Origin: an uncultured Pelagibacteraceae bacterium
GTDB taxonomy: Bacteria; Pseudomonadota; Alphaproteobacteria; Pelagibacterales; Pelagibacteraceae
DNA: 57,186 nt
Reading direction: 5' to 3'
Assembly: GCA_902552475.1 (NCBI GenBank)
Contig: CACDJC010000005.1
Span: 1 to 57,186, forward strand
Shown one piece after another: positions 31,923 to 57,186 of the stretch; the first letter of the stretch is position 1; each line of letters opens with the position of its first letter. A model generated the notes under the pieces. The model had not been told where the DNA came from, searched no databases, and saw nothing but the letters and a program-made list of their open reading frames with translations. A program made the position numbers and the translations under genes.

Positions 31923-32040
31923 AGCCTGGCAATGTCCTACTCTTCCATGTCTTAAGACAAAGTACCATCGGCGCAGAAAGGCTTGACTTCCGAGTTCGGA
32001 ATGGAATCGGGTATTACCCTTTCGCAATAATCACCAGGCA
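31923..32040 (-). rRNA. rrf: 5S ribosomal RNA, detached from 23S
   Basis: The reverse strand reads TGCCTGGTGATTATTGCGAA..., includes CCATTCCGAACTCGGAAGTC and CGCCGATGGTAC, and ends GGACATTGCCAGGCT. The two ends pair (GCCTGG/CCAGGC) as helix I of 5S rRNA. No 23S or 16S sequence lies upstream of it within the 25 kb visible to the right; surface-glycan genes fill that space. This matches the split rRNA arrangement known for SAR11. Confidence 0.97.
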
Positions 32041-44262: not shown

Positions 44263-45096
44263 ATGAAATATAAAGTTATAGATAATTTTTTGAGCGAAGA
44301 ACTATGTAATAATTTAATTGAGGATGCAGAAAAGTTTTCAAAGAACGATCACATAAAAGTTTTGAACGAAAGATTGCTATTACCATCAACAAGCTTATTT
44401 TTTTCAAATCTACTTAAAAAATCAAATTATTGGAATGCACTTCATGAAAAGCTAAATTCTCAAGAATTTTTAAATACTTTAATGAAAAATCTTGAAATAG
44501 ATGACCAGAATTTCGTTATAACAAATTTTTTTTTTAATAAAAATCCTGGTTTTTTTTTAAATAAATATAAAAAATTAAATTCTCAAAAAATTTCAACTAT
44601 CGGAAATTTAAATTTAATTTTTTACTTACTATTTAAATTTTTTAGATCTTTGCATAGAATTTTAAAATATAAATTTACAAATAAAAAATATGTAGAGTTG
44701 CTTTACGATTATTCAAAATCTCCAAATGGTTACAAAAGAGAAATTCATAGAGACTCTGACTCAAGAACAATTGTTTTCCTCATGTATTTAAATAGTCTGA
44801 GCGAAGAAGGAGAAGGTGGAGACTTAAGATTATTTGAATATATTAAGAAAGAAACAAAAATACCTTCAAGACCTTATGAAGAAGATTGTAAAATTTTACA
44901 GAAATTTTCACCAAAACCAGGAAGATTAGTAACTTTTTTAAATTCTTATGACAGCCTGCATGATGTTAGTGAAATGAAAAATCATAAAGGCTTTAGGCAC
45001 TTTCTTTATGGATCGTTTACGCTATTAGCAAAAAAAAATATACTTCTTAAAAAAAGTTCAGGTAATTTAAAAACAAATTTCGAAATTTTTGATTAA
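44263..45096 (+). CDS. 2-oxoglutarate/Fe(II)-dependent dioxygenase
   Basis: The 277-residue protein has the iron triad pattern HRD (H162, D164) and SLHDVSE (H233), with R245 ten or so residues on as the 2OG-binding arginine candidate. GGDLRLFEY and FLNSYDSLH fit the prolyl-hydroxylase-like 2OGFeDO family. A hydrophobic insertion near residues 115-135 may touch the membrane. It overlaps the next aminotransferase gene by one base. The substrate, protein or sugar, is unknown. Confidence 0.8.
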   Translation: MKYKVIDNFLSEELCNNLIEDAEKFSKNDHIKVLNERLLLPSTSLFFSNLLKKSNYWNALHEKLNSQEFLNTLMKNLEIDDQNFVITNFFFNKNPGFFLNKYKKLNSQKISTIGNLNLIFYLLFKFFRSLHRILKYKFTNKKYVELLYDYSKSPNGYKREIHRDSDSRTIVFLMYLNSLSEEGEGGDLRLFEYIKKETKIPSRPYEEDCKILQKFSPKPGRLVTFLNSYDSLHDVSEMKNHKGFRHFLYGSFTLLAKKNILLKKSSGNLKTNFEIFD

Positions 45097-46415
45097 TGAT
45101 AAATTCAAAAGATAAAAATCAAATACTTTATAAACAAGCCAAAAATATTATACCTGGTGGCACAATGCTATTTTCTAAGAGACCTGAAAATTATTTACCA
45201 AACAAATGGCCAACATATTTTAAAAAAGCTAAAGGTGCATATGTGTGGGATTTAAATAATAAAAAATATTTAGATATGTATTTTGGAGTAGGTCAAAGTG
45301 TTCTTGGATATGCAAATTCTAAGGTGGATGATGCTGTAATAAAATCAAATAAATCTGGAAATATTGCAAGCTTAAATTCATTTCAAGAAGTTGAGTTAGC
45401 AAAAAAATTAATAAAAATTCATCCATGGTCTGGTTTTGCTCGTTTTGCTAAAACCGGAGGAGAGGCCGGTGTTATTGCTACAAGAATTGCAAGATCAATA
45501 AATAATAAAGAAAAGATTGCAATATGCGGATATCATGGATGGCATGATTGGTACTTAGCTGCAAATATAAAATCTAAAAATAATTTAAATTCACATTTAT
45601 TAAAAGGTTTAAAGTCTGTAGGAGTTCCAAAATCTTTAAAAAATTCAGTTTATCCATTTCGATTGAATAATTTTGATGATTTTAAAAAAATTACTAAAAT
45701 TAAAAATTTATCAGCTATTGTAATGGAAGTTCAAAGAGAAAAAGATCCAAATATAGAATTTTTAAGAAGTATTAGGAAATTTTGCAATAAAAATGGGGTA
45801 ATTTTAATTTTTGATGAATGCACATCTGGATTTAGAGAAACATATGGAGGAATACATCTAAAATATGGGATTTACCCAGATATATTAACATTGGGTAAAT
45901 GTTTAGGTAACGGTTATCCAATTACTTGCGTTCTTGGTAAAAAAAAATATCTAAAGTATGCTTCTAGGAGCTTTATAAGTAGTACTTTTTGGACAGAAAA
46001 ATCTGGTTTAGTAGCTGCATTAAAAACAATTGAAATAATGAAAAAAAATAAAACTTTTGAAAAAGTAAAAAGAACAGGAAAAAAAATTAAAAGTATTTGG
46101 AAGAAAATTTCAAATAAGTATGATTTACCAATAATAATATATGGATTAGATTCTATTCCATGTTTTAAAATCTTATCAAAAAATTCAAATAAATATAAAA
46201 CGCTAATTACTCAAGAAATGTTAAAGAATAACATTTTAGCTTCAAACCAAATGTACATATCAACTGTACATACAAATAAATTAATAAGAAGATATCAAAT
46301 AGTACTCGATAAAATTTTTTCAACTATTAAAAAATGTGAAAATAATAAAAAATTAATTTATAAAGTATTAAAAAATAAAGAATCAAGTAGTGATTTTAAT
46401 AGATTGACTGGATAA
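45096..46415 (+). CDS. Class III aminotransferase (glutamate-1-semialdehyde aminomutase-like)
   Basis: The 439-residue PLP enzyme has GGEAGVIATRIAR, GYHGWHDWY, LIFDECTSGFRETYGG with D240, and LGKCLGNGYP with the PLP lysine K268. Sequence style is HemL-like, but its place in a polysaccharide locus and its pairing with a dioxygenase suggest a sugar or small-molecule role rather than heme synthesis. It ends five bases from the convergent pseC fusion gene. Confidence 0.87.
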   Translation: MINSKDKNQILYKQAKNIIPGGTMLFSKRPENYLPNKWPTYFKKAKGAYVWDLNNKKYLDMYFGVGQSVLGYANSKVDDAVIKSNKSGNIASLNSFQEVELAKKLIKIHPWSGFARFAKTGGEAGVIATRIARSINNKEKIAICGYHGWHDWYLAANIKSKNNLNSHLLKGLKSVGVPKSLKNSVYPFRLNNFDDFKKITKIKNLSAIVMEVQREKDPNIEFLRSIRKFCNKNGVILIFDECTSGFRETYGGIHLKYGIYPDILTLGKCLGNGYPITCVLGKKKYLKYASRSFISSTFWTEKSGLVAALKTIEIMKKNKTFEKVKRTGKKIKSIWKKISNKYDLPIIIYGLDSIPCFKILSKNSNKYKTLITQEMLKNNILASNQMYISTVHTNKLIRRYQIVLDKIFSTIKKCENNKKLIYKVLKNKESSSDFNRLTG

Positions 46416-46420
46416 AATAC

Positions 46421-48511
46421 TTAAATCTCTTTTGTTAGTTCCTTTATACTATCAATAACATACTTTTGCTCATTAAATTTTAGATCAAAATATAAAGGAA
46501 TGCTTAAACATTGATTATAGTAATCTTTGGTATTATTTAAATATTTCATACTGTACCCTAATTTCTTATAAAAATATTGCATTGGGACAGGAATATAATG
46601 CACTTGAGATATTATATTATATTTTCTTAATTTTTTCATAAAGTCATTTCGATTAATATGTATATTTTTAAAATCTATTTTTATTACATATAAATGGTTT
46701 GAGCTTAAATCTCTAAATTGATTTTGAACCAATTTAATATTTATTTTATTAAAAAATTCTTGGTCATAAATTTTTGTCAATTGATTTCTTTTTTTAAGAA
46801 ATTGATTAACTCTTTTCAATTGCGAAATAATAAGACCTGAATGTATATCAGTTTGTCTGTAGTGATATCCTAATTTGTTCATTTCGTAATACCATATGTT
46901 TTTGACTTTATTTGTATAACCAGTTTTAATATTTTTTACTTGGTCATCCTTCCTTATTCCATGACTTCTTAAAGATATTAAAATTTCATAAAGTTTCTTA
47001 TTATTAGTCGTAATTATACCACCTTCTCCCCCAGCTAAAATTTTTACTGGATGAAAAGAAAAAACTGATAAATCTGAATATTTACAAGAACCAACTTTTG
47101 CACCGCATTCATATTTGGCTCCAAAGGCATGCGCAGCATCTTCAACAATATTTAATCCTCTATTTTTTGAAATATTAAAAATTTTTTTTGAATTTGCTGC
47201 CAAACCTCCAAAATGAACAGGTACAACTACACCTATATTTTTTTCTTTTTTTAAACTTTGATCAAGTATTTCTGGGCACATACCTAAAGTTTCACTTGAA
47301 ATATCAGTAAAACTTGGTTTGGAGTTACAAAATAGTGCTGCGTTAGACGTAGACAAAAACGTATTTGGGGTTGTTATTATTTTGTTATTTTTATTAATAT
47401 TTAAAGCTATATAAGACAAATGAAGTCCTGCTGTTGCACTAGAAACAGCTATAGAATATTTTACACCAAGGTAATTGCATACTTCATTTTCCAAATCTTC
47501 AATGAATTTTCCCTGGGTAAGAGATCCACTTTTAAGAACTTTTTTTACTGCATTTAAGTCTTTTGAATTTATAGAATGACGACCATAAGGAAAATTAACA
47601 GATAAATCTTTTAAAATTTTTTTATCATTGGTTATAAATTCTTTTATTTGACTACTTAAAGTTGGAATTTTAAAATTTAATATCTTTCTTATTTTAGTAT
47701 TTGAAAGAGATAAATCAGTACATCTTTTAGTATGTAAATTAGAATCTTTAATCTTACTCACAACAACAAAATCTTTAAAGGCTTGCTTTTCTTTTACTAA
47801 AATTTTACAAAAATCGTATTTGGATACTCTTTCATTAGATACAACATTAAAAATTCCATTAAAATTTTTCTTAATTAAAAAATTAATAATTTTTACCAAA
47901 TATTTTGAATAAATTGGTGTAAAAAAATAATCATTAAATAAATTAATTTTCTTTTTATTTTTCAAAAAATTTTGAACTTTATAAACTAATTGATCAGAGT
48001 TATTTTTATGTGAAAAAAAATTAGTCCTAATTATTAACGCTTTATTATTTATTTTTTTAATATTTTTTTCTGCCTTAATTTTTTGACTACTATAATTATT
48101 AACTTTTTTTACTGAAAATGACTCATTTTTGAAAGGTCGAATACTTTTGTATAAATGATCAGTAGAAATATGAACAAATTTAATTTTAAGGTCTCTGCAA
48201 ATTAAAGCCAATCTTGTTGGCAAAATGACATTTGCAAACACACTTCTTTCAGGATATTTCTCACAAAAATCAAGATTTACACTAGCCGCTGTATTTAAAA
48301 TTATGTCTGGCGAAATTTCTTTAATTTTTTTTTTAAGATAATCTAGTTTATTTGAAAAATCATTTTTTTTAAATTTTATATATTCGGCATTTGAAAAATA
48401 GATTTTTGTTTCGTGTACATTTAATATAAATTTGTAACTATCTTTAAGAAAATGAACAAAATTAGAACCTAGATTTCCCGAATGACCAAAAACTAATATT
48501 TTTTTTTTCAA
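46421..48511 (-). CDS. Fusion: RmlD-like reductase + PseC-like DegT aminotransferase
   Basis: This 696-residue protein has two domains. Residues 1-295 form an RmlD-like NAD(P)-dependent reductase with GHSGNLG (9-15), HISTDHLY and a YxxxK motif at Y140-K144. Residues 300-696 form a DegT/DnrJ/EryC1 aminotransferase with VEDAAHAFG (D458) and the PLP lysine K490 in SFHPVKILAGGEGG. The latter matches PseC, which aminates the 4-keto sugar made by PseB. The stop of the upstream pseB gene overlaps the start by four bases. The reductase role is not known. Confidence 0.85.
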   Translation of the reverse strand: MKKKILVFGHSGNLGSNFVHFLKDSYKFILNVHETKIYFSNAEYIKFKKNDFSNKLDYLKKKIKEISPDIILNTAASVNLDFCEKYPERSVFANVILPTRLALICRDLKIKFVHISTDHLYKSIRPFKNESFSVKKVNNYSSQKIKAEKNIKKINNKALIIRTNFFSHKNNSDQLVYKVQNFLKNKKKINLFNDYFFTPIYSKYLVKIINFLIKKNFNGIFNVVSNERVSKYDFCKILVKEKQAFKDFVVVSKIKDSNLHTKRCTDLSLSNTKIRKILNFKIPTLSSQIKEFITNDKKILKDLSVNFPYGRHSINSKDLNAVKKVLKSGSLTQGKFIEDLENEVCNYLGVKYSIAVSSATAGLHLSYIALNINKNNKIITTPNTFLSTSNAALFCNSKPSFTDISSETLGMCPEILDQSLKKEKNIGVVVPVHFGGLAANSKKIFNISKNRGLNIVEDAAHAFGAKYECGAKVGSCKYSDLSVFSFHPVKILAGGEGGIITTNNKKLYEILISLRSHGIRKDDQVKNIKTGYTNKVKNIWYYEMNKLGYHYRQTDIHSGLIISQLKRVNQFLKKRNQLTKIYDQEFFNKINIKLVQNQFRDLSSNHLYVIKIDFKNIHINRNDFMKKLRKYNIISQVHYIPVPMQYFYKKLGYSMKYLNNTKDYYNQCLSIPLYFDLKFNEQKYVIDSIKELTKEI

Positions 48512-49515
48512 AATGTCTGTCTTAATTTAATATTTTTGATCTCTTTAATTAAATAATTTCTATTTATTTTGTTTGTATTATTTGATCCATAGTAAAAGTT
48601 TTTACTTACTTTTTTTCCACCTAATTTTATTTTTTTATTTTTTATTGTTAAATTGGGAAGAATTTCGTAATGATTTTTAAACTCAACTGTAAATTCAGAA
48701 TCATCTTTTCCTATCATTTGTTCATGTATTTTTTCACCTTCTCTAATACCAATTATTTTTATTTTAGAGGAAGGACTTATAATTTTTGCAAGTTCTAAAA
48801 TTTTTATCGCGTTTAATTTTTTAACAAAAATCTCACCACCTTTCATTTCTTTAAATGCAAAACATACAAAATCAACAGCATCATTTAATGTTAAAAAAAA
48901 TCTTGTCATATCTTTATGAGTTAATGGAAGATGTTTCTTATTTTTTAAAGATAAAAAGAAAGGTATCACAGATCCTCTAGAACCAAGAACATTTCCATAT
49001 CTAACAACTGAAAAAATAGTTTTGGAGGTATTATTTATTTGAGAACAAAAAAGTTTATCGGAACATAATTTGGATGCACCATAAAGATTTATAGGACTAG
49101 ATGCTTTGTCAGTTGATAGCGCTACAACTTTTTTAATTCCATAGGATATGCTACAACGGATAATATTTATCGCTCCAAAAATGTTAGTTTTTATACATTC
49201 TTCTGGATTTATCTCTGCTGTTGGAACTATTTTTGTTGCTGCTGCATGAATAACATAATCTATTTTATTATTACGAAAAACAGATTCTACTCTCTCATTG
49301 TCTCTAACATCGCCAATGATAAATTTTAATATTTTTATATTTTGATATGCCTCCTTCATGTTCCACTGCTTCATCTCATCCCTAGAAAAAATTATTATTT
49401 TTTTTGGTTTAGCAAACTTCAAAACTTCACTGATTAAAATACTTCCAAAAGATCCTGTCCCGCCAGTTACAAGAATTATTTTGTTGTTAAAATGACTAAA
49501 GTTTTTTTTTTTCAT
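48508..49515 (-). CDS. pseB: UDP-GlcNAc 4,6-dehydratase (inverting), PseB type
   Basis: The 335-residue enzyme has TGGTGSFGS at 17-25, ALSTDKA with D136-K137, and NLYGASK with Y145 and K149, a pattern of the inverting dehydratases FlaA1/PseB. It also has FSRDEMKQWNM and the C-terminal GEKIHEQMI. It turns UDP-GlcNAc into the 4-keto-6-deoxy-L-arabino intermediate of pseudaminic acid. It overlaps the genes on both sides. Confidence 0.92.
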   Translation of the reverse strand: MKKKNFSHFNNKIILVTGGTGSFGSILISEVLKFAKPKKIIIFSRDEMKQWNMKEAYQNIKILKFIIGDVRDNERVESVFRNNKIDYVIHAAATKIVPTAEINPEECIKTNIFGAINIIRCSISYGIKKVVALSTDKASSPINLYGASKLCSDKLFCSQINNTSKTIFSVVRYGNVLGSRGSVIPFFLSLKNKKHLPLTHKDMTRFFLTLNDAVDFVCFAFKEMKGGEIFVKKLNAIKILELAKIISPSSKIKIIGIREGEKIHEQMIGKDDSEFTVEFKNHYEILPNLTIKNKKIKLGGKKVSKNFYYGSNNTNKINRNYLIKEIKNIKLRQTF

Positions 49516-50836
49516 GATAATTCAATTCTTTCCAATTTAATGGATTTATTATACTTTCATCTTTTGTTTTGAGATTATTATAAACATTTTTATAAAATTT
49601 TAATTTTTTAAAATTTAAAATCATTCTTAATTCACTTGCTTGTCTAACACCAATTAGAATTTTATCAATGTTTTTTTCATTTAACACAAAAGATAATAAT
49701 GAATTAACCCTATCAACTTTTTTTTTTAATAACATCTTATCATAAATTAAAGATAATTTACTATTAGTTTTTATTTTGCTTAATAAAGATCCTTGTAAAA
49801 AAATTGATCTGGCTTGGATTTCAATATTTTTGTTTTTTATAATTTTAAAAATTCTTAAAGCTCTTTGATCAACAGCGCTGAAAGGTATTTGCACTACGTC
49901 TATTTTAAAATTATTTAATATTTTTTTTATATTTTTAAAATTATGAAAAGATACTCCTATTTTCTTAATTATTTTTTTTTTTTTTAAATGTAAAATTCTA
50001 TTAAATAGTTCAAAACCTTCCTTTGATATTAAATTATTACCATCATGAATAAATAAAGTGTTAAGTTGAATATTCTTTATTTTGCTTACTTTTTTTAAGT
50101 ACTTTTCGCATTTATCCAAAAATTTTATATCTGATGTTAAAAACTTTGTATTAAACAAGGTTTTTTTTTTTATTTTTTTCAATAATTTAAGATCAACTGT
50201 ATATGAAAAAGCTGAGTCTAATTCATTTATCTGTGATTTTTCAAATTGATTAAGAATTAAATAACTATTTTTTTTAGATAATATTTTTTTTTTTAAATTA
50301 GTAACACCGTATTTACTTTGCAACTGAGCAAGCCCTAAAATTAATTTTTTTGTAAAAATATTACAATTCATAGTAATATAATTTTTATATACTTTCTCAT
50401 TTAAAAAACCTGCTTTGACATATGATTTTATAGCTGAAATGTTTTTTTTGTTTACATTTAATTTTAAAAAATAAATTTTTTCTTTTACTAATAAATCTTT
50501 TATTCTCTCCAGAACTTCTACAAAAGCTCCAATTCCTCTAAATTTTTTTTCCCCTATTAAGACTCCTATCCATGCTTCATTTTTTTTTTTATTAATATTA
50601 TGAATTTTTATATTTCCTATATGTTTTTTTTTGAAAAAAATTGCTAGAAAAACTGTACTTTTATCTTTTAAGTTTTGTTTAATATTTTTTCTAAGTTCAA
50701 TTAAACTTTTTGGTTTAAAATTAATAAATTTTCTTATATCTTCATCATTAAACCAATCGAGATAATTTTTTTTTACTAAGTTTGATGAAAACTTTTTTAT
50801 AACAAATCTTTTAGTTTTAAATGAAGTTAAAATCAT
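49496..50836 (-). CDS. Fusion: GNAT acetyltransferase + aldo/keto reductase
   Basis: Residues 1-155 are a GNAT N-acetyltransferase with the acetyl-CoA region GVLIGEKKFRGIGAF, resembling PseH. Residues 163-446 are an aldo/keto reductase with the full catalytic tetrad D207, Y212, K231 and H264. Aldo/keto reductases occur beside nonulosonate synthase genes in other bacteria, but fusion to a GNAT is new to me. PseH would acetylate the 4-amino group. A 14-base poly-T tract (49972-49985) lies in the reductase part. The last 20 bases overlap pseB. Confidence 0.82.
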   Translation of the reverse strand: MILTSFKTKRFVIKKFSSNLVKKNYLDWFNDEDIRKFINFKPKSLIELRKNIKQNLKDKSTVFLAIFFKKKHIGNIKIHNINKKKNEAWIGVLIGEKKFRGIGAFVEVLERIKDLLVKEKIYFLKLNVNKKNISAIKSYVKAGFLNEKVYKNYITMNCNIFTKKLILGLAQLQSKYGVTNLKKKILSKKNSYLILNQFEKSQINELDSAFSYTVDLKLLKKIKKKTLFNTKFLTSDIKFLDKCEKYLKKVSKIKNIQLNTLFIHDGNNLISKEGFELFNRILHLKKKKIIKKIGVSFHNFKNIKKILNNFKIDVVQIPFSAVDQRALRIFKIIKNKNIEIQARSIFLQGSLLSKIKTNSKLSLIYDKMLLKKKVDRVNSLLSFVLNEKNIDKILIGVRQASELRMILNFKKLKFYKNVYNNLKTKDESIINPLNWKELNYHEKKKL

Positions 50837-50850
50837 AATAAATTATAAAA

Positions 50851-51540
50851 CTAATTCATATAATTTCCTTTAAAAAGAATTTTTGCAAGTTTCCAGTCAT
50901 CTTCTGTATCAATATCTACAGATCTTTCTATTGGTAATTTATATGTACATATTTTTTGATTAAAATTAAAAACGTTATTCTTAATAAACTTCGTTGGAAA
51001 ACAATATATTTGACCAGAGTCATAATATGATTTTATTTTTGATAATTTTTTGTCTCTCATTTTTTTTTCTGATGTTTTGTAAATAAAACCTTTTTTTATT
51101 TGGAAAGCCCAATTTAAAGAAACTGGAAAAGGAGATGCAGCAACTACTGGCTTTTTATATTTTAAAATTATCTTTGAACACTCATTTATATCTTTTTCTG
51201 TAATCAATGGTGAGCAAGGTAATATGCACCATACTTCATCAAAATTTTTACCTACATCTTGATATTTTTTAACAACAAATCTTATTACTTTCATCAAATC
51301 GGTATTATCTTTTGCTAAATTTTTAGGTCTAAGAAAATCTATGTACTTTTGATATTTTTTTAAAACTTTTTTTATATCCTTAGACTCGGTTGAAATATGA
51401 ATTTTATTAAATTTCTTTGATTTTAATGCTTGTTCCAAAGGATAATATATTATTGGTTTGCCAAAAAAATTTCTTATATTTTTATTTTTTATTCTTTTAG
51501 ATCCAGTTCTAGCTGGAATAATTAATAATCTTTTAGTCAC
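50851..51540 (-). CDS. pseF: CMP-nonulosonate (acylneuraminate) cytidylyltransferase, PseF type
   Basis: The 229-residue protein starts with LLIIPARTGSKRIKNKNI, the NeuA/PseF nucleotide-binding loop (with T where G is usual). It also has CILPCSPLITEKDI and DIDTEDDW near the end. It activates the nonulosonic acid with CTP to the CMP-sugar used by transferases. It sits 23 bases from PseI upstream and 14 from the GNAT-reductase fusion, as expected for one operon. Confidence 0.86.
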   Translation of the reverse strand: MTKRLLIIPARTGSKRIKNKNIRNFFGKPIIYYPLEQALKSKKFNKIHISTESKDIKKVLKKYQKYIDFLRPKNLAKDNTDLMKVIRFVVKKYQDVGKNFDEVWCILPCSPLITEKDINECSKIILKYKKPVVAASPFPVSLNWAFQIKKGFIYKTSEKKMRDKKLSKIKSYYDSGQIYCFPTKFIKNNVFNFNQKICTYKLPIERSVDIDTEDDWKLAKILFKGNYMN

Positions 51541-51563
51541 TTTTTAAATAACATTTTTAATAA

Positions 51564-52601
51564 TTATAAAATATTTTTTAATAAAATTTTATCACCAACA
51601 TTAAGGTTTTTTTTAGATTTTTTTCCTATTATTTTTTCATAATAATTAATACTTAATCCATACGAAGGTCTGACTATTTTAACATTATTTTTAGTAATAT
51701 TTTCTCCTTTTTTAATTTTTTTAGATACATAAATTGATCTTCTATATTTTAAAGATTTTTTTTCAGATAAAGTAGGTCCATAAAAATTTTTACCCTTGCA
51801 TATAACAATTTTTTTGCAATTTTGAATTATTCTTTTAAAATCTTTTTCATCAGCAGAAAAAAAATTATCTACTGAGTTTATTTTTTTTGATAAAGTAAAA
51901 TGTTTTTCTATAATAGAAGCGCCTAAAGAAACTGCTGTCATTGCTGCTATTTCTCCCTTAGTGTGGTCAGAAAATCCAATTTCACATTTAGGAAACTTTT
52001 TTTTTAAATCTTTAATTGTTAATAAATTTGAGTCCTTAAGATTTGCAGGATAGTTTACTGTACATTTTAATAATGCAATATTTTTATTTTTAACAAATAT
52101 TTTTACTGCTTTTTTTATTTCTTTGAGGGTTGCTCCCCCTGTAGAAATAATTACAGGCTTTTTTGTTTCGGCAACTTTTTTTAATAAAGGTAAATTAGTA
52201 ATCTCTAATGAGGCAATTTTATAAACGGGACATTTTAGTTTTTGCAACTTATCAACAGTGTTAACGCTAAAAGGAGATGAAAAACATAAAATTTTTTTTT
52301 TTTTACATATCTCTAATGCAACTTTATACCATTCGATCGGGGTCTGTCCTTTTTTATAAATATCGTATAAATATTTTTTATCCCATTTATTTTTACTTCC
52401 TTTAATTAAAAAATCTTTATTTTTTGTATTAATAGTCAGATCTTCTGGGGTGTAAGACTGTAACTTAATTGCATTAACGCCTGAATTTATTGCTGAAATA
52501 ATTGTTTTTTTTAATATATTTTTATTTCCAGCGTGATTTCCTGATATTTCTGCAACAAAAAATGGATTTTTGCTTGATATATTTAAATTATCTATTTTCA
52601 T
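51564..52601 (-). CDS. pseI: Pseudaminic acid synthase, PseI type
   Basis: The 345-residue protein has the NeuB-family TIM barrel (AEISGNHAGN, IKLQSYTPEDLTI, FSSPFS, GFSDHTKG, IEKHFTL) and a C-terminal SAF domain. The block LYDIYKKGQTPIEWYK is characteristic of PseI rather than sialic acid NeuB. It condenses the 2,4-diacetamido-altrose with phosphoenolpyruvate to pseudaminic acid. A PLP- or transport-type role is excluded by the motifs. Confidence 0.92.
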   Translation of the reverse strand: MKIDNLNISSKNPFFVAEISGNHAGNKNILKKTIISAINSGVNAIKLQSYTPEDLTINTKNKDFLIKGSKNKWDKKYLYDIYKKGQTPIEWYKVALEICKKKKILCFSSPFSVNTVDKLQKLKCPVYKIASLEITNLPLLKKVAETKKPVIISTGGATLKEIKKAVKIFVKNKNIALLKCTVNYPANLKDSNLLTIKDLKKKFPKCEIGFSDHTKGEIAAMTAVSLGASIIEKHFTLSKKINSVDNFFSADEKDFKRIIQNCKKIVICKGKNFYGPTLSEKKSLKYRRSIYVSKKIKKGENITKNNVKIVRPSYGLSINYYEKIIGKKSKKNLNVGDKILLKNIL

Positions 52602-52610
52602 CTTAATATT

Positions 52611-53603
52611 TTAATAGGACCATTTTAATATCGTTGTCCCAAAAATAAAACCAGCTCCTACTCCACTGATCAAAACTATATCATTCTTTTTTATTTTTTT
52701 ATTTTTAAAAGCCTCATGCATTGTTATTCCAATTGAGGCATCAGCCGTGTTTCCATATTTGTTTGCTGTTATAAAGGTTTTAGTTAAAGGAATTTCAAGT
52801 CTATGCATAAGAAATTTAATTAAATTATAATTTGCTTGATGAAAAATGAAGAAATCTATGTCCTTTAGTTTTAGTTTTGCATCAATTAAAGCTAAATTAA
52901 TATTTTTAGGCTGATTTGTAATAACTTGTTTCCAAACTTCAAGTCCGCTTATCTCGTATTTTTGAGTATTTTTTAATTTTAAATAATCAGATGTTACAAA
53001 ACTTGATCCACCTCCCCTCATTCTTACGGCATCGTAAACTTTTGTATTACTAATTAAAGACGATCCTAAATATCCATACCCTTTTTTAACTTTTGATACT
53101 ATTGCAGCAGAGGCTCCATCACCAAAGTAAATTGAGCTACTACTATCTCTCCAATCAATATATCTAGATTGCATTGCAACTGCTACAACAAGAATATTTT
53201 TTACATTATTTGAGTTTTTAATTTTTTCAAATGCTATATCTAGTCCAGTTTGAAAACCCGTACAGTTAGCCATTACATCAAAACAACCTGGTTGTTTTAA
53301 ATCTAAAAGTTGTGAAATTTTACATGCTAAAGCTGGATAAATATAATCTCCACTAAATGAACAACATATGACTTGGTCAATATCATATTTTTTTATTTTA
53401 GAATTTTTTATTGCCTGGATAGATGCCTTAAAACCCATATAGGATGCTGTTTCATTTTTTTTTGCAATCCTTCTGAATTTAATGCCTGTTTTTTTAAAAA
53501 TTTCATTATGATTTAATTTACACAATTTTGATAAGGTTAAATTATCTAATTTTTTTTTTGGTAGATATGCTCCAGTACCAATAATTCCAGAAGCATATTT
53601 CAT
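52611..53603 (-). CDS. Beta-ketoacyl-ACP synthase III (FabH-like)
   Basis: The 330-residue thiolase-fold enzyme has the Cys-His-Asn triad C114 (MANCTGFQ), H255 (FHQAN) and N285 (NKYGNTADAS). KAS III condenses a starter acyl-CoA with malonyl-ACP, or acts as an acyltransferase in some antibiotic clusters. Two carrier-protein genes lie in the same operon. Its place between PseI and an SDR suggests a dedicated acyl group for the glycan, not bulk fatty-acid synthesis. Confidence 0.88.
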   Translation of the reverse strand: MKYASGIIGTGAYLPKKKLDNLTLSKLCKLNHNEIFKKTGIKFRRIAKKNETASYMGFKASIQAIKNSKIKKYDIDQVICCSFSGDYIYPALACKISQLLDLKQPGCFDVMANCTGFQTGLDIAFEKIKNSNNVKNILVVAVAMQSRYIDWRDSSSSIYFGDGASAAIVSKVKKGYGYLGSSLISNTKVYDAVRMRGGGSSFVTSDYLKLKNTQKYEISGLEVWKQVITNQPKNINLALIDAKLKLKDIDFFIFHQANYNLIKFLMHRLEIPLTKTFITANKYGNTADASIGITMHEAFKNKKIKKNDIVLISGVGAGFIFGTTILKWSY

Positions 53604-54301
53604 AGTATTGTTCCAATAGAAAGCTCTTGACCAGTAATTAACTTATTATTTTTATCAGATAAAAACCTAACAAGATTAACAAATTGATCAATCTTTCCAT
53701 TTTGTTTTTTATCTTGCATTGACAAAATATTCTTTTTCCAAGTAATACCTCGTTTTTTAGTTTCTTGGTTTTGAATATACATTGGTAAAATAACATTAGC
53801 ATTTATATTAAAATTAATATTTTCCTTGGCTAGAATTTTTGTGAAAGTAGTTATTGCAGATTTAGATGAGGAATATACGGCTGAACCTACTAAATATTTT
53901 TTTGCTGATATAGATGAAATATTTATTATTGATCCGCCTTTACTTTTAATAAAATATTTTAAAACTTCTCGATTACAGATGAAGGTACTTTTTAAAGTTG
54001 AAGAAATGCTATTATTAAACTCATCATCAGAAAAATTGTAAACTAAATTGCCTCCTAATGTTGTTCCTGAAAGACAAATTAAAACATCAATTTTTTTTTC
54101 TTTTTGGTAAACTTTATCAAACCAGTTACGTACCTTTTTTTTATTTGTGGTATCAATTATTGCATGAAAATAATTTTTTTTAGATAACTTTGTTTTTGAT
54201 TTAGAACATCCATAAATTTTACAATCGTTAAAATTTAACAATTTATCAATTAAACCTGAACCTATGGCTCCTGTATCTCCAGTTATACAAATTATATTCA
54301 T
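53600..54301 (-). CDS. Short-chain dehydrogenase/reductase (FabG-like)
   Basis: The 233-residue SDR has TGDTGAIG at 7-14, INISS with S130, and the YxxxK pair Y143-K147 in VYSSSKSA. It is complete for a classical SDR. It overlaps the KAS III gene by four bases. By position it may reduce a 3-ketoacyl-ACP intermediate; a keto-sugar substrate is also possible. Confidence 0.85.
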   Translation of the reverse strand: MNIICITGDTGAIGSGLIDKLLNFNDCKIYGCSKSKTKLSKKNYFHAIIDTTNKKKVRNWFDKVYQKEKKIDVLICLSGTTLGGNLVYNFSDDEFNNSISSTLKSTFICNREVLKYFIKSKGGSIINISSISAKKYLVGSAVYSSSKSAITTFTKILAKENINFNINANVILPMYIQNQETKKRGITWKKNILSMQDKKQNGKIDQFVNLVRFLSDKNNKLITGQELSIGTIL

Positions 54302-54310
54302 TTTAAAAAA

Positions 54311-54607
54311 TTATTTTTTTATCTTTTTTTGAATATAGTTTTTTAGATCTTTAATTTTAAGTTTACCTTCACCTTTTTTAAACTGAGGTATATCATTTAA
54401 TATAATATGAAAACTTTTATTAGTTAATTTTTCCAGATCTTCCTCTAGAGATGTAGTTAACTCAACAAAGGCAACTGAATCAAATGGAGAATTTGTTCCA
54501 TTGATAATAGTTGTATTACTTATTGTTTCGCTTTTTTGTATGCTATTGGATTTTTTTAATTTTTTTATAACACCGTCGAATAGTTTATCTAGATTTTTTT
54601 CTTGCAT
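54311..54607 (-). CDS. Acyl carrier protein-like small protein (atypical)
   Basis: The 98-residue protein has SPFDSVAFVELTTSLEEDLEKLTN, in which S44 of FDSVAFVEL aligns with the phosphopantetheine serine of ACPs. The preceding sequence is not a standard ACP helix and the linker NTTIINGT is unusual. The C-terminus is lysine-rich. It overlaps the methyltransferase gene by 23 bases. A divergent carrier protein is the best guess. Confidence 0.62.
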   Translation of the reverse strand: MQEKNLDKLFDGVIKKLKKSNSIQKSETISNTTIINGTNSPFDSVAFVELTTSLEEDLEKLTNKSFHIILNDIPQFKKGEGKLKIKDLKNYIQKKIKK

Positions 54608-55625
54608 ATTTCTTCTTTGGTCTCAATACCCAAACAAATGCAGAGGGTATCTTTGATGAATTAGCATTATCAAACAACCACTTATATTCAAGAGTATATG
54701 GACTGTCAATTAATAATGATTTGTACTCTTTCCATGACATTATTCCTTGACCTGATATTTTATGAAAAAAAAGATATTCAGGCATTAAACTCTTATTGTA
54801 TATCTCTTTTAAAATCCTATTTTCAAGTCTTACAATCTCGCCAATAATTATGAATGATTTAGGAAATGCATCATACAAATTTGATAAAAATTTTTTTAGA
54901 TTTTTAACTTTATGATCTGAAATTTCGTGAAGCATAAACCACAAAGATATTAATGGTTTTCTGTTTTTTAAAAATTTAGAAATTTTTTTATTCCAAAGTT
55001 TTACTTTTGAAATATCAAATTTAAATATTTTAAAATTATTTTGGTTAACATGTTTCTTTATATTTTTTCTGCAAGTTTGAACTGAGTCTTTTGATAAATC
55101 TATACCGACAATTTTTAAATTTTTTTTTCTTTTCAGAACTTCATTAATGAAATGGCCATTTCCACATCCAAGATCAATTAAAGAGTCATAATTGATATTA
55201 GAATTTGAATAGTTAATTGGTTGAAAAAAGTATCTTAAATGTGTAAGTCCACTACCAAGAATATTTTCATTTCTATCAACTTTGCAAGAATTTAATTTTT
55301 TTTTGTCGGTTAATATATTTCCTAAATTTAAAATAACTTCTCTATATGAATGTGGAACAAAAAATGAATTAGATCTTCTGAATATTTCATATCCGACATT
55401 TGTAAGTTCAAAACCATCTTTCTTTTTTTCTAAAAGTCCTATATTTAGAAGATAATCCAAACATAAATCCAAAACTAATTTATTTTTAATTTTTTTTTTA
55501 TTTTTAAGATTGATTTTTTTTGAAGCTTTAGAAAAAACTCCTAATTTACTTAACTCACATATTATAGGGGTAGCATATAATCCTCTCAAAATATGAGATG
55601 GAGTTGTTTCATCATAATTTTCCAT
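54585..55625 (-). CDS. SAM-dependent methyltransferase with N-terminal winged-helix-like domain
   Basis: The 346-residue protein has an N-terminal helical region similar to the dimerisation/winged-helix part of O-methyltransferases (about residues 10-85). The catalytic domain has motif I DLGCGNG at 151-157 and VGIDLSKDSVQTC after it. Layout fits small-molecule O-methyltransferases of polyketide-type pathways. It could methylate an acyl group or sugar hydroxyl. It overlaps the GNAT gene upstream by 14 bases. Confidence 0.8.
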   Translation of the reverse strand: MENYDETTPSHILRGLYATPIICELSKLGVFSKASKKINLKNKKKIKNKLVLDLCLDYLLNIGLLEKKKDGFELTNVGYEIFRRSNSFFVPHSYREVILNLGNILTDKKKLNSCKVDRNENILGSGLTHLRYFFQPINYSNSNINYDSLIDLGCGNGHFINEVLKRKKNLKIVGIDLSKDSVQTCRKNIKKHVNQNNFKIFKFDISKVKLWNKKISKFLKNRKPLISLWFMLHEISDHKVKNLKKFLSNLYDAFPKSFIIIGEIVRLENRILKEIYNKSLMPEYLFFHKISGQGIMSWKEYKSLLIDSPYTLEYKWLFDNANSSKIPSAFVWVLRPKKKYARKKSR

Positions 55626-56121
55626 AATTATCTTTCAAATATTTATAACCAATGCTTTTTTTCCAACTTCTATCACTCAAACTTGTGAAAATATAATTTT
55701 TTTTAAAATGCTTAAATTCTTTATAACCGCACATCTTATTTAATTTTCTTATTTTATTATTCTTTATATTTATATAACTTTTTATTAATTTTAAATTTAA
55801 TTTAAAAAAAATTTCATAATGAAGCAAATTTATTACAAAAAAAGTCAAATAAGAATATTTTCTTTTAAATATATAAAAACCAGCATTGCATATTTTATTG
55901 TCTATCAATTTTACTTGTGCTAAGCCTATTTTGTCTTTTTTATAGATAATAATCCATGCAAATGATATTTTTTTTTTTAGTTTTTCTTTAAACCAAATAT
56001 CATGCTCTAAAGATGTTATTTTTTTTCTTAATAAATACTGATTAACTTTTTTATTGTTTCTCCATTTAAAAATTAAAGACTTATCTTTATTTTTTAAAGA
56101 GCGAAATTTAAGAAATTTCAT
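55612..56121 (-). CDS. GNAT family N-acyltransferase (PseH-like)
   Basis: The 169-residue protein resembles sugar N-acetyltransferases of the PseH type by its start (RSLKNKDKSLIFKWRNNKKVNQYL) and ending with INIKNNKIRKLNKMCGY. The acetyl-CoA loop is not of a clear Q/RxxGxG/A form. As it lies next to an ACP and FkbH gene, it may take an acyl group from ACP instead of acetyl-CoA; that is inference. Confidence 0.72.
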   Translation of the reverse strand: MKFLKFRSLKNKDKSLIFKWRNNKKVNQYLLRKKITSLEHDIWFKEKLKKKISFAWIIIYKKDKIGLAQVKLIDNKICNAGFYIFKRKYSYLTFFVINLLHYEIFFKLNLKLIKSYINIKNNKIRKLNKMCGYKEFKHFKKNYIFTSLSDRSWKKSIGYKYLKDNYGKL

Positions 56122-56342
56122 TTTTTACTAAGAATTATTTCCTCAATAAGCGCGTAGCTTAACATCTCATTAATTTCATCATCAGTAAATTTTATTTTAA
56201 ATTCTTTTTCATATGCCATTACTAAATTCATATGTGCTAGAGAGTCCCATTTTTTAGTATTTTCAGGAGATGTGTTACTTTTTATTTTAGCTATATTTAA
56301 CCCTGTAATTTTTGAAAATATTTTTTTTATTTTATTTTGCAT
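56118..56342 (-). CDS. Acyl carrier protein
   Basis: The 74-residue protein has the phosphopantetheine site WDSLAHMNL with S34, flanked by a helix-loop pattern of ACPs (KIFSKITG; FKIKFTDDEINEM). In the FkbH/ACP/GNAT arrangement it probably carries a glyceryl or related acyl group. It overlaps both neighbours by four to eleven bases. Confidence 0.9.
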   Translation of the reverse strand: MQNKIKKIFSKITGLNIAKIKSNTSPENTKKWDSLAHMNLVMAYEKEFKIKFTDDEINEMLSYALIEEIILSKK

Positions 56343-57186
56343 AAATTACTTTTATTGGTTCACGTTTTTTTTTCTCATTTAAAAAATCGACAACATTTTT
56401 TGAAAAAATTTTTTTATTTCCTAAATTTTTTATAATTTTAAATCCGTTTTTGCTATAAAAGTTTTCTACAATTTTGTTTTTAGGTCCTTTTATATATAAA
56501 GCCTCAACTTTTTTTATTTTCATTGAATTAATTAATTTAATCAACTCTTTTAAAAATGTTTCTTCTACTTCCCTACCCATTACTCTGCAACTCATCAAAA
56601 AGTTTTCTATAGTTGCTAGGTTTTTTTTAAAATTAATAGAAATATCAGCAAGTCCAATAGTGCCATATTCTCCAAATTTATCTTTAAGTGAAATTGCATA
56701 TATTTTATTTTTTTTATTTTTAATTTTTTTTTTAATTTCATTTAAAGTGTGTCTCTGTAAAGTTAAATTAAATTGATTTGTTTTTTGTGTTAGTTGGGCC
56801 AATCTTTCTATATCGAAAAATTTTGATTGACCAAAATGTAATTCCAAATCTAAAGTTTTAAGATATTCGCTGTAAGAACTTTTTTCTCTAATTTTAATTC
56901 TTTTATTTTCTTGTGAATAAAATTCATTTCTCAACTTATCTTCTTTGGTAATACTCTCATTTTTGTTAAAAAATTTACAAACATCAAATAGAACTTTTTT
57001 ATAATCATTCAAATTTTTTGGTACTTTTACACAATCAATGTCTTTGATAGAATTTTGTACTTCCGAAATCTCAAAATCAGAGTCATCCAAAAATACAAAT
57101 GAACTTGTACCCAAATTTAATTCTTTAGAAATTTCAATTATATTTTTTGATTTTGTTTCCCAGTTAATTTTTTTAATATTAAATTT
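56332..57186 (-). CDS. FkbH-like HAD-IIIC/GNAT protein (N-terminus beyond window)
   Basis: The frame is open through the right edge. It reads KINWETKSKNIIEISKELN before a TTG at 57114, so that codon is internal. Visible are SFVFLDDSDFE (HAD IIIC motif), LAQLTQKTNQFN, and a C-terminal GNAT-like part with IENFLMSCRVMGREVE. FkbH proteins load a glyceryl unit from 1,3-bisphosphoglycerate onto an ACP; an ACP gene follows directly. The nucleophile DxDxT of the HAD part lies outside the window. Confidence 0.85.
   Translation of the reverse strand, partial: KFNIKKINWETKSKNIIEISKELNLGTSSFVFLDDSDFEISEVQNSIKDIDCVKVPKNLNDYKKVLFDVCKFFNKNESITKEDKLRNEFYSQENKRIKIREKSSYSEYLKTLDLELHFGQSKFFDIERLAQLTQKTNQFNLTLQRHTLNEIKKKIKNKKNKIYAISLKDKFGEYGTIGLADISINFKKNLATIENFLMSCRVMGREVEETFLKELIKLINSMKIKKVEALYIKGPKNKIVENFYSKNGFKIIKNLGNKKIFSKNVVDFLNEKKKREPIKVIYAK

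Follow-up and report, generated by a model that had tools for sequence, protein, structure and literature searches.

A SAR11 gene cluster that may build a pseudaminic-type nonulosonate bearing an acyl group made on carrier proteins

Introduction

Few bacteria of the ocean are as abundant as SAR11 and yet, to our knowledge, their surface chemistry is hardly known. We asked what is made by a compact cluster of sugar and acyl-carrier genes at one end of contig CACDJC010000005.1 (assembly GCA_902552475.1), a 57,186-nt stretch from an uncultured Pelagibacteraceae bacterium, hereafter the window, which is an entire contig (C5) of an assembly ~71% complete. Here, twelve minus-strand open reading frames between positions 46421 and 57186 overlap or are separated by 23 nt at most. 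A first-pass annotation, made from the letters alone, had read them as a nonulosonate (NulO) pathway joined to an acylation module based on acyl carrier proteins (ACPs), and had proposed a di-O-methylglyceric modification such as that of Campylobacter jejuni pseudaminic acid (Pse). We put at about 0.5 the probability of a related but different product, i.e., a pseudaminic-type NulO with a short acyl group, preferably a C-methylated hydroxyacyl, that would be built on ACPs and moved onto a sugar amine by a PseH-like GNAT.

The cluster is conserved in a second genome of the genus

The cluster is beyond chance association, as evidenced by identical gene order in a relative and low dN/dS ratios. 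A contig scan with the methyltransferase encoded in the cluster yielded 386 pattern matches and one relative, L019, from Pelagibacteraceae AG-916-N14, a genome of the window's genus that is represented by both G239 and G101 and was counted once. The order FkbH, ACP, GNAT, methyltransferase, ACP-like protein, short-chain dehydrogenase/reductase (SDR), beta-ketoacyl-ACP synthase III (KAS III), PseI is identical in L019, and KAS III and pseI lie 9 nt apart in both loci. FkbH is truncated in the window because the latter is all of contig C5. Another contig of the same assembly, C33, terminates in the N-terminal part of FkbH (64% identical to the L019 protein over residues 2-214 of the latter), preceded upstream by a MaoC-SDR fusion and a second methyltransferase, arranged as in L019. 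The two contigs were kept unjoined, and ~80 FkbH residues, the DxDxT segment among them, are absent from both; allowing for this gap, the order from the second methyltransferase to PseI is the same in the two genomes.

The genes most conserved with respect to L019 are those of the first ACP (ACP1, 86% identity), KAS III (84%), and the methyltransferase (80%), followed by the SDR (72%), the second methyltransferase (72%), the MaoC-SDR fusion (71%), the ACP-like protein (70%), PseI (65%), a class III aminotransferase (65%), the GNAT of the acyl module (GNAT2, 61%), PseF (56%), and a GNAT fused to an aldo/keto reductase (GNAT-AKR, 43%), with the C33 genes at about 71-74%. Over the twelve genes compared, dN/dS ranged from 0.07 to 0.42, ratios that are rough since dS was 0.8-1.4. 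The feature extends past the twelve genes of the window, as the class III aminotransferase on the opposite strand and the C33 genes also belong to it. The first-pass annotation had missed both the aminotransferase and the MaoC-SDR fusion, and its extent was thus incomplete. On the other hand, the twelve overlapping or nearly abutting genes that it described are confirmed, and Pfam and NCBIfam profile searches, from which all family calls derive (cut-off denotes the curated cut-off of a model; Table 1), bear out most of its families, except that one of its GNATs is the GNAT-AKR fusion and that its second ACP, of 98 aa, has no profile match. The proposed joining of NulO and ACP-based acylation genes is likewise supported, with the linkage of pseI to the acyl genes kept in L019. 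Farther upstream on C33, before the second methyltransferase, a short NeuB-like gene (245 aa) and an SDR-like gene were observed (L052, i.e., G000:C33, 1884-3274).

The acyl module combines FkbH, carrier proteins, and a condensing enzyme

The FkbH fragment of the window surpasses the cut-off of the glyceryl-loading family, as anticipated by the first-pass annotation, and so does its L019 ortholog (278.2 bits), in which the DxDxT nucleophile is DCDNT at residue 223. A MaoC-SDR fusion adjoins or nears FkbH on C33, in L019, in G280 (L053), and on plasmids of Maritalea (L063) and Niveispirillum (L065), the last with an ACP and an acetyltransferase-type gene between both; on the plasmid side, there were 48 matching records, of which five regions were opened and two gave these cases. 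We propose that such a dehydratase-ketoreductase pair would convert glyceryl-ACP to lactyl-ACP, for which bryostatin loading is a precedent. Genes resembling AAC(3) also occur near FkbH in L058 and L060.

KAS III, the only one found in this assembly, retains the complete Cys-His-Asn triad (NCTGF, HQAN, and YGNT, aligned with the residues of 2ebd); it misses the cut-off for canonical FabH and passes that of the NF006829 beta-ketoacyl-ACP synthase 3 model. Ten ACP models match ACP1, all under their own cut-offs (best 32.9 bits). The 98-aa carrier-like protein matched nothing in Pfam or NCBIfam, and comparison of its structure with 16 chains gave five rows with Z>=2, none of them an ACP; its Asp-Ser is kept in three homologs, and it weakly matches the ACP 2l4b (E 0.1). 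The components of a viosamine-type acylation module, i.e., a KAS III, a ketoacyl reductase, an ACP, and a sugar-amine acyltransferase, are all present by family, ACP and PseH-like GNAT scoring under the named cut-offs.

The in-operon methyltransferase is probably of the C-methyltransferase type

Both AprA-related Pfam domains of the in-operon methyltransferase (winged-helix and MT2-like) score over their cut-offs, the O-methyltransferase domain PF00891 remains under its own, and the first matches of the methyltransferase profile are AprA-MT1 and 2-ketoarginine methyltransferase. H233, E263, and H288 are invariant across 5/5 homologs and align with the same three residue types in MrsA, a C-methyltransferase of 2-ketoarginine. 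A glutamate such as E263 presumably has a role in metal-dependent C-methyltransferases. SgvM, an enzyme of the same kind that we compared through passages of its description and by structure, holds zinc via H244 and H296 (PMC10502145), an analogy that suggests H233 and H288 as metal ligands.

A predicted model of the protein, built on 5 sequences, reached a pLDDT of 70.4, with segments 278-282 and 290-292 below 50. Its 15 best structural matches are all MppJ, MrsA, SgvM, SxtA, and AprA methyltransferases, headed by the Streptomyces hygroscopicus enzyme named MppJ in PMC10502145 (Z 22.9 over 299 residues, root-mean-square deviation 4.5) and followed by MrsA (22.0), SgvM (18.6), SxtA (17.7), and AprA (17.6); other methyltransferases score from Z 17.6 downward, mostly over fewer residues. 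Together, profile, conserved residues, and predicted fold indicate a probable C-methyltransferase type, which argues against this enzyme as an O-methylator of glycerate and, combined with the full KAS III triad, renders carbon-carbon bond formation likelier. The other methyltransferase, that of C33 and L019, is UbiG-like and could be an O-methyltransferase.

The sugar genes are of the pseudaminic type

PseB and PseI both pass their curated cut-offs, and a separate PseC of the L019 genome does so too, at 435 bits. The PseG model scored 40.3 and 13.3 bits in that genome, under the cut-off of 153.55. The kinship of the module GNAT with a sugar-amine transferase, claimed at the outset, was borne out by the search of the PDB with GNAT2, whose sole match at E<=0.01 is PseH (4xpk, E 7.3e-8), making GNAT2 the best PseH candidate of the cluster. 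In the GNAT-AKR fusion, the motifs LDSAFSY, NTK, and FIHDG are present, which we take to fit the D-Y-K-H tetrad of aldo/keto reductases; a PDB search with this fusion gave nothing at E<=0.001. Top PDB matches of the class III aminotransferase are aminopentol and glutamate-1-semialdehyde (GSA) aminotransferases, C-6' aminotransferases being listed as well, and its L019 ortholog (L019:14067-15377) sits between pseI and pseF on their strand.

The AKR domain and the class III aminotransferase probably change C8 of the NulO, yielding an amine or an epimer. In the descriptions consulted, an 'alpha/keto reductase', which we read as an aldo/keto reductase, and a class III aminotransferase accompany pse genes in Aeromonas group I islands (PMC7874193), a Vibrio cluster encodes a cytidylyltransferase-AKR protein (PMC7371886), and EpaA (CTP_transf_3 plus aldo/keto reductase domains) and EpaB (an SDR) turn Pse5Ac7Ac into its 8-epimer (PMC12053666).

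The acyl module is rare among SAR11 genomes

Relatives of the methyltransferase were found at E<=1e-25 in 5 of 397 genomes of the order, including those of the window (G000) and L019 (G239) with the full module, and in 1/398 genomes of the phylum search, again the window's own. In the genus, matches at E<=0.001 came from 73 of 101 genomes and, apart from the window's own, all were weak and over short stretches (best 31.1 bits). A viral scan with the methyltransferase alignment gave 134 pattern matches and no relatives, and a plasmid search with the methyltransferase gave no match. Two partial neighborhoods were observed on the way. In G319 (L037:3-3851), a PseG-like gene (at 73.2 bits, short of the cut-off) comes after the methyltransferase relative, together with genes that by eye resemble those of MaoC, CitE, and NeuD; the set of this other SAR11 NulO locus is thus unlike that of the window. 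In G414 (L035:9753-12171), the relative lies near an 89-aa carrier-like protein with no Pfam match and a 357-aa protein, acetyltransferase-like by eye, with no NCBIfam match.

FkbH relatives number 11 in the 397 order genomes (E<=1e-40). In the surroundings of the nine from other genomes (L053-L061), a PseI-like gene is nearby in two (L054, and L060 at its edge) and a PseB (47%) in L057, and the remaining loci show no clear NulO gene.

The canonical FabH cut-off was passed by none of the 397 order genomes vs 8/14 controls, and SAR11 fatty-acid initiation may use another route than canonical FabH. KAS III matches at E<=1e-20, counted with the family model (a protein query missed the KAS III of G104, and its absences were therefore not used), occur in 64/397 genomes: 15 of the window's genus, 5 of the sister genus, and 44 of another family. 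We read the surroundings of the 15 same-genus genes (window, L019, G398 at L055, and twelve more, some ended by the contig) and the 5 sister-genus ones, leaving out the other family. PseI-like genes lie within about 10 kb of KAS III in 8 of the 15 (34-47% identity in the twelve) and none was found near the five sister-genus genes (L099, L101-L104). As islands concentrate such genes, this proximity denotes association, not proof. KAS III genes of the window's genus often sit in glycan islands, and near one SAR11 locus with KAS III and PseI-like genes there is an AdoCbl-II riboswitch (L108:4561-4639).

NeuB-family genes, by contrast, are common, being found in 76 of 101 genus genomes and in 14/16 of the nearly complete ones. 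The first-pass annotation had called an acylated surface NulO unusual in such a bacterium; this holds for the rare acyl module and not for the sugar, and what emerges is a widespread NulO capacity in the genus, to which fewer genomes add genes for ACP-based acylation. Some NeuB-family matches fall in open frames of ~800 aa (G001:C13, G040:C52, G019:C28), suggesting SAR11 NeuB fusions.

Discussion

The favored route would run as follows. PseB and the PseC-type enzyme would yield UDP-4-amino-4,6-dideoxy-AltNAc, PseI would condense the freed sugar with phosphoenolpyruvate, and the PseF-like enzyme would activate the product with CMP, as supported by the sequence families. On the acyl side, FkbH might use 1,3-bisphosphoglycerate to charge ACP1 with a glyceryl unit, a priming step that we regard only as possible, and the MaoC-SDR fusion could dehydrate and reduce this unit, a lactyl-type one being the simplest outcome. 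KAS III would then extend the starter with a malonyl unit, the methyltransferase would place a methyl on the alpha carbon of the 1,3-dicarbonyl so formed, and the SDR would reduce the ketone. Finally, the PseH-like GNAT would transfer the C-methylated hydroxyacyl to the amine normally acetylated by PseH, N7 of the NulO. The acyl steps may follow another order, and the exact acyl group may differ. By analogy, the O-polysaccharide NulO of Flexibacter maritimus, which bears an 8-amino and a 3-hydroxybutyramido group, is the type of product to be predicted from such a gene set; the passage describing it puts the latter group at N7 in one sentence and at N5 in the next (PMC3210612).

Several observations weigh against this interpretation. 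In the L019 genome, PseB (53%) and PseC (47%) lie away from the module, farther along the contig (L032); no PseG was found in the window's assembly at E<=1, at its given completeness; and PseC, PseF, and PseH all fall short of their NCBIfam cut-offs, so that they are Pse-like rather than proven equivalents. On the acyl side, the window FkbH lacks the DxDxT segment owing to the contig gap, the FkbH-MaoC-SDR locus of G280 shows no clear NulO gene, and neither profile, nor PDB, nor structure searches confirmed the 98-aa protein as a carrier. In G414 and G351, neither KAS III nor FkbH was found in the vicinity of the methyltransferase, and the same goes for G319, where the contig begins inside the methyltransferase gene. 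The predicted model of the window protein is mediocre overall and poor around H288, and the C-methyltransferase argument therefore rests mainly on the sequence alignment; moreover, the O-methyltransferases MfnG (Z 16.2, 284 residues) and PhzM (16.8, 255 residues) come near the SgvM, SxtA, and AprA rows, so that only MppJ and MrsA stand clear. The protein scores 62.6 bits against a cut-off of 425 in the 2-ketoarginine methyltransferase equivalog TIGR04543, and is thus a relative of that enzyme, not that enzyme itself. Lastly, islands gather unrelated sugar genes, and proximity alone is weak evidence.

Some of these points would fit two separate neighboring modules, the acyl one serving a different amino sugar within that polysaccharide and the NulO being only acetylated. 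Overall, the acyl-module genes are better conserved with respect to L019 (61-86%) than PseI, PseF, and GNAT-AKR (43-65%), PseB and PseC are located elsewhere in that genome, and 7 of the 15 same-genus KAS III contexts show no PseI-like gene in the stretch read. However, the best PseH candidate lies inside the acyl module, and the constant KAS III-pseI spacing in both genomes also argues against such a split, which we consider rather unlikely. A little more doubtful is a NulO carrying glyceryl or (di-)O-methylglyceryl as in C. jejuni, where FkbH would load, a methyltransferase O-methylate, and the GNAT transfer, with KAS III merely shuttling the acyl. FkbH scores over its cut-off with ACP and GNAT adjacent, the UbiG-like methyltransferase upstream could O-methylate, and strain NCTC 11168 offers a parallel in an fkbH-domain gene of its Pse locus, Cj1302 (PMC7099621), and in minor amounts of a di-O-methylglyceric Pse derivative on flagellin (PMC3958885), likened here from the descriptions in these papers. 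The difference is that our in-operon methyltransferase groups with C-methyltransferases, KAS III retains its condensing triad, and O-methylglycerate requires neither MaoC nor SDR domains, all of which led us to disfavor the di-O-methylglycerate model of the first-pass annotation.

We regard as improbable that the SDR and the aldo/keto reductase serve as an EpaA/EpaB-like pair epimerizing C8 instead of tailoring the acyl. The 8-epimer of Pse5Ac7Ac provides the precedent, in the descriptions of PMC12053666 on which this likeness is based, and the AKR motifs are intact, but the SDR gene overlaps that of KAS III and comes after that of the ACP-like protein, FabG is the type for which the SDR scores highest, and the class III aminotransferase that accompanies the AKR in L019 and in Aeromonas group I islands suggests amination rather than epimerization. 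A tetronate-type operon using glycerate for a small molecule is hardly credible and was rejected. FkbH, ACP, and a FabH-like enzyme do belong to the five-gene tetronate set, according to the passages of PMC7489565; yet no Agg4/Agg5-type acyltransferase/dehydratase pair was recognized among the annotated genes, the acyl genes adjoin NulO genes, and KAS III shares just 22% identity with its counterpart from a Pseudalkalibacillus plasmid, whose neighbors are FkbH, ACP, and an E2-type gene in a locus read as tetronate-like. Methoxymalonyl-ACP was also considered. One of the two dehydrogenases in its pathway is of the acyl-CoA-dehydrogenase type, and no gene of this type was recognized here. Its five-gene set comprises these two dehydrogenases and an O-methyltransferase (PMC7489565, in part).

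Returning to the C-methylated hydroxyacyl NulO, the closest described system is the viosamine island of Pseudomonas syringae (vioA, vioM, vioT, vioS, vioB, vioR, and acp), likened here by gene family and description. Formation of N-(3-hydroxy-1-oxobutyl)-viosamine depends on this island, which encodes an ACP, the KAS III VioS, the acyltransferase VioB, and the reductase VioR; these are proposed to place an ACP-built hydroxyacyl on a sugar amine, as our locus would, and the island also holds a methyltransferase (PMC3927599, in part). There, the pathway was proposed by the authors, who tested vioA, vioB, vioT, vioR, and vioM mutants; deletion of vioR abolished modified viosamine on flagellin and that of vioM cost it a methyl. 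Unlike here, the sugar is Qui4N and not a NulO, the seven-gene list contains neither FkbH nor MaoC, and VioM is needed for a sugar O-methyl, whereas our in-operon enzyme is of the C-methyltransferase type. Besides the reductase and aminotransferase of group I, Aeromonas group II islands share with our locus an ACP, a 3-oxoacyl-ACP reductase, and other fatty-acid-type genes between pse genes; in the part of these gene lists examined, FkbH, KAS III, and a C-methyltransferase do not appear, and the group II acyl genes are thought to feed a lipid-type component (PMC7874193). On the Maritalea myrionectae plasmid pHL2708Y3 (NZ_CP021332.1 133549-148622), pseB, FkbH, a MaoC-SDR fusion, and a NeuB-family synthase gather in one 15-kb stretch, but FkbH is fused to an AAC(3)-like domain and no KAS III or C-methyltransferase was found in that stretch. 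As for the methyltransferase itself, it shares its fold with MppJ, MrsA, and SgvM and with AprA-MT1 and SxtA, and the aligned His, Glu, and His with MrsA, but these enzymes are known to act on free alpha-keto acids or polyketide-type malonyl units, whereas ours sits in a sugar locus.

The individual parts are therefore of known types and their combination looks new. Among the literature matches listed, pseudaminic acid and FkbH co-occur only in PMC7099621, none joins SAR11 or Pelagibacter with 'nonulosonic', and one mentions SAR11 and 'sialic acid' once, which is not proof of absence from print. The result yields a testable prediction for one SAR11 surface structure and links C-methyltransferase and FkbH chemistry, familiar from polyketides, to bacterial sugar decoration. 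More tentatively, and only as a possibility, we picture a polyketide-like line in a hypervariable region of these genomes, in which FkbH and MaoC-SDR would prime, KAS III would extend, and a metal-dependent enzyme would add a C-methyl branch before transfer to an 8-amino or otherwise 8-modified pseudaminic acid; this would be an undescribed NulO, and shuffling of such modules among SAR11 strains would diversify the surface seen by phages.

Genomic setting

We take the locus to be a surface-glycan island of hypervariable region 2 (HVR2), because the window contains a 5S rRNA, glycosyltransferases, and an O-antigen-ligase-type protein, and L019 has an rRNA operon before the module. Specifically, two family-2 and one family-4 glycosyltransferases and one O-antigen-ligase-type protein are encoded at 32-44 kb of the window, and 16S, two tRNAs, and 23S directly precede the acyl module in L019. 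HVR2, of which the window shows the 5S border and not the 23S end, is described as the largest hypervariable region of SAR11, mostly encoding cell-surface properties (PMC2217521, in part).

Table 1. Features of the locus, in window coordinates, with the profile scores that underlie each assignment (bits; PLP, pyridoxal phosphate)
Feature	Position	Strand	Evidence
5S rRNA, one border of HVR2	31924..32038	-	RF00001 90.4
Class III (GSA-type) aminotransferase	45096..46415	+	PF00202 136.9; LGKCLGNG motif with presumed PLP lysine
RmlD-like reductase domain fused to PseC-type aminotransferase	46421..48511	-	TIGR03588 412.7 (cut-off 423.5); PF04321 residues 4-295
PseB, UDP-GlcNAc 4,6-dehydratase (inverting)	48508..49515	-	TIGR03589 412.1 > cut-off 407.75; STDKA...Y...K motif
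GNAT fused to aldo/keto reductase (KidO-like)	49496..50836	-	PF13302 and PF00248; KidO model 59.8 < cut-off 244
PseF-like CMP-NulO synthetase	50851..51540	-	TIGR03584 166.3 < cut-off 205.7
PseI, pseudaminic acid synthase	51564..52601	-	TIGR03586 391 > cut-off 340.25
KAS III, beta-ketoacyl-ACP synthase III	52611..53603	-	NF006829 264.9 > cut-off 249; TIGR00747 (canonical FabH) 266.7 < cut-off 292.1
FabG-like SDR, candidate beta-ketoacyl-ACP reductase	53600..54301	-	PF00106 102.7; TIGR01830 118.9 < cut-off 297.75; YSSSK motif
98-aa putative acyl-carrier-like protein, conserved Asp-Ser (D43 S44)	54311..54607	-	Assigned by eye
Methyltransferase, probable C-methyltransferase type	54585..55625	-	AprA winged-helix and AprA MT2-like Pfam domains > cut-off
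PseH-like GNAT (GNAT2), candidate N-acyltransferase of the module	55612..56121	-	TIGR03585 57.6 < cut-off 93.1
Acyl carrier protein (ACP1), presumed FkbH partner	56118..56342	-	PF00550 17.0 < cut-off 20.8
FkbH / HAD-IIIC glyceryl-ACP synthase, C-terminal part	56332..57186	-	TIGR01686 204.6 > cut-off 146.65

A promoter scan of the window found 82 promoters vs 86.1 expected, and 3 terminators vs 1.6 expected; repeats in this AT-rich sequence were uninformative. A 2OG-Fe(II) oxygenase-type gene is located at 44263-45096, directly before the class III aminotransferase.

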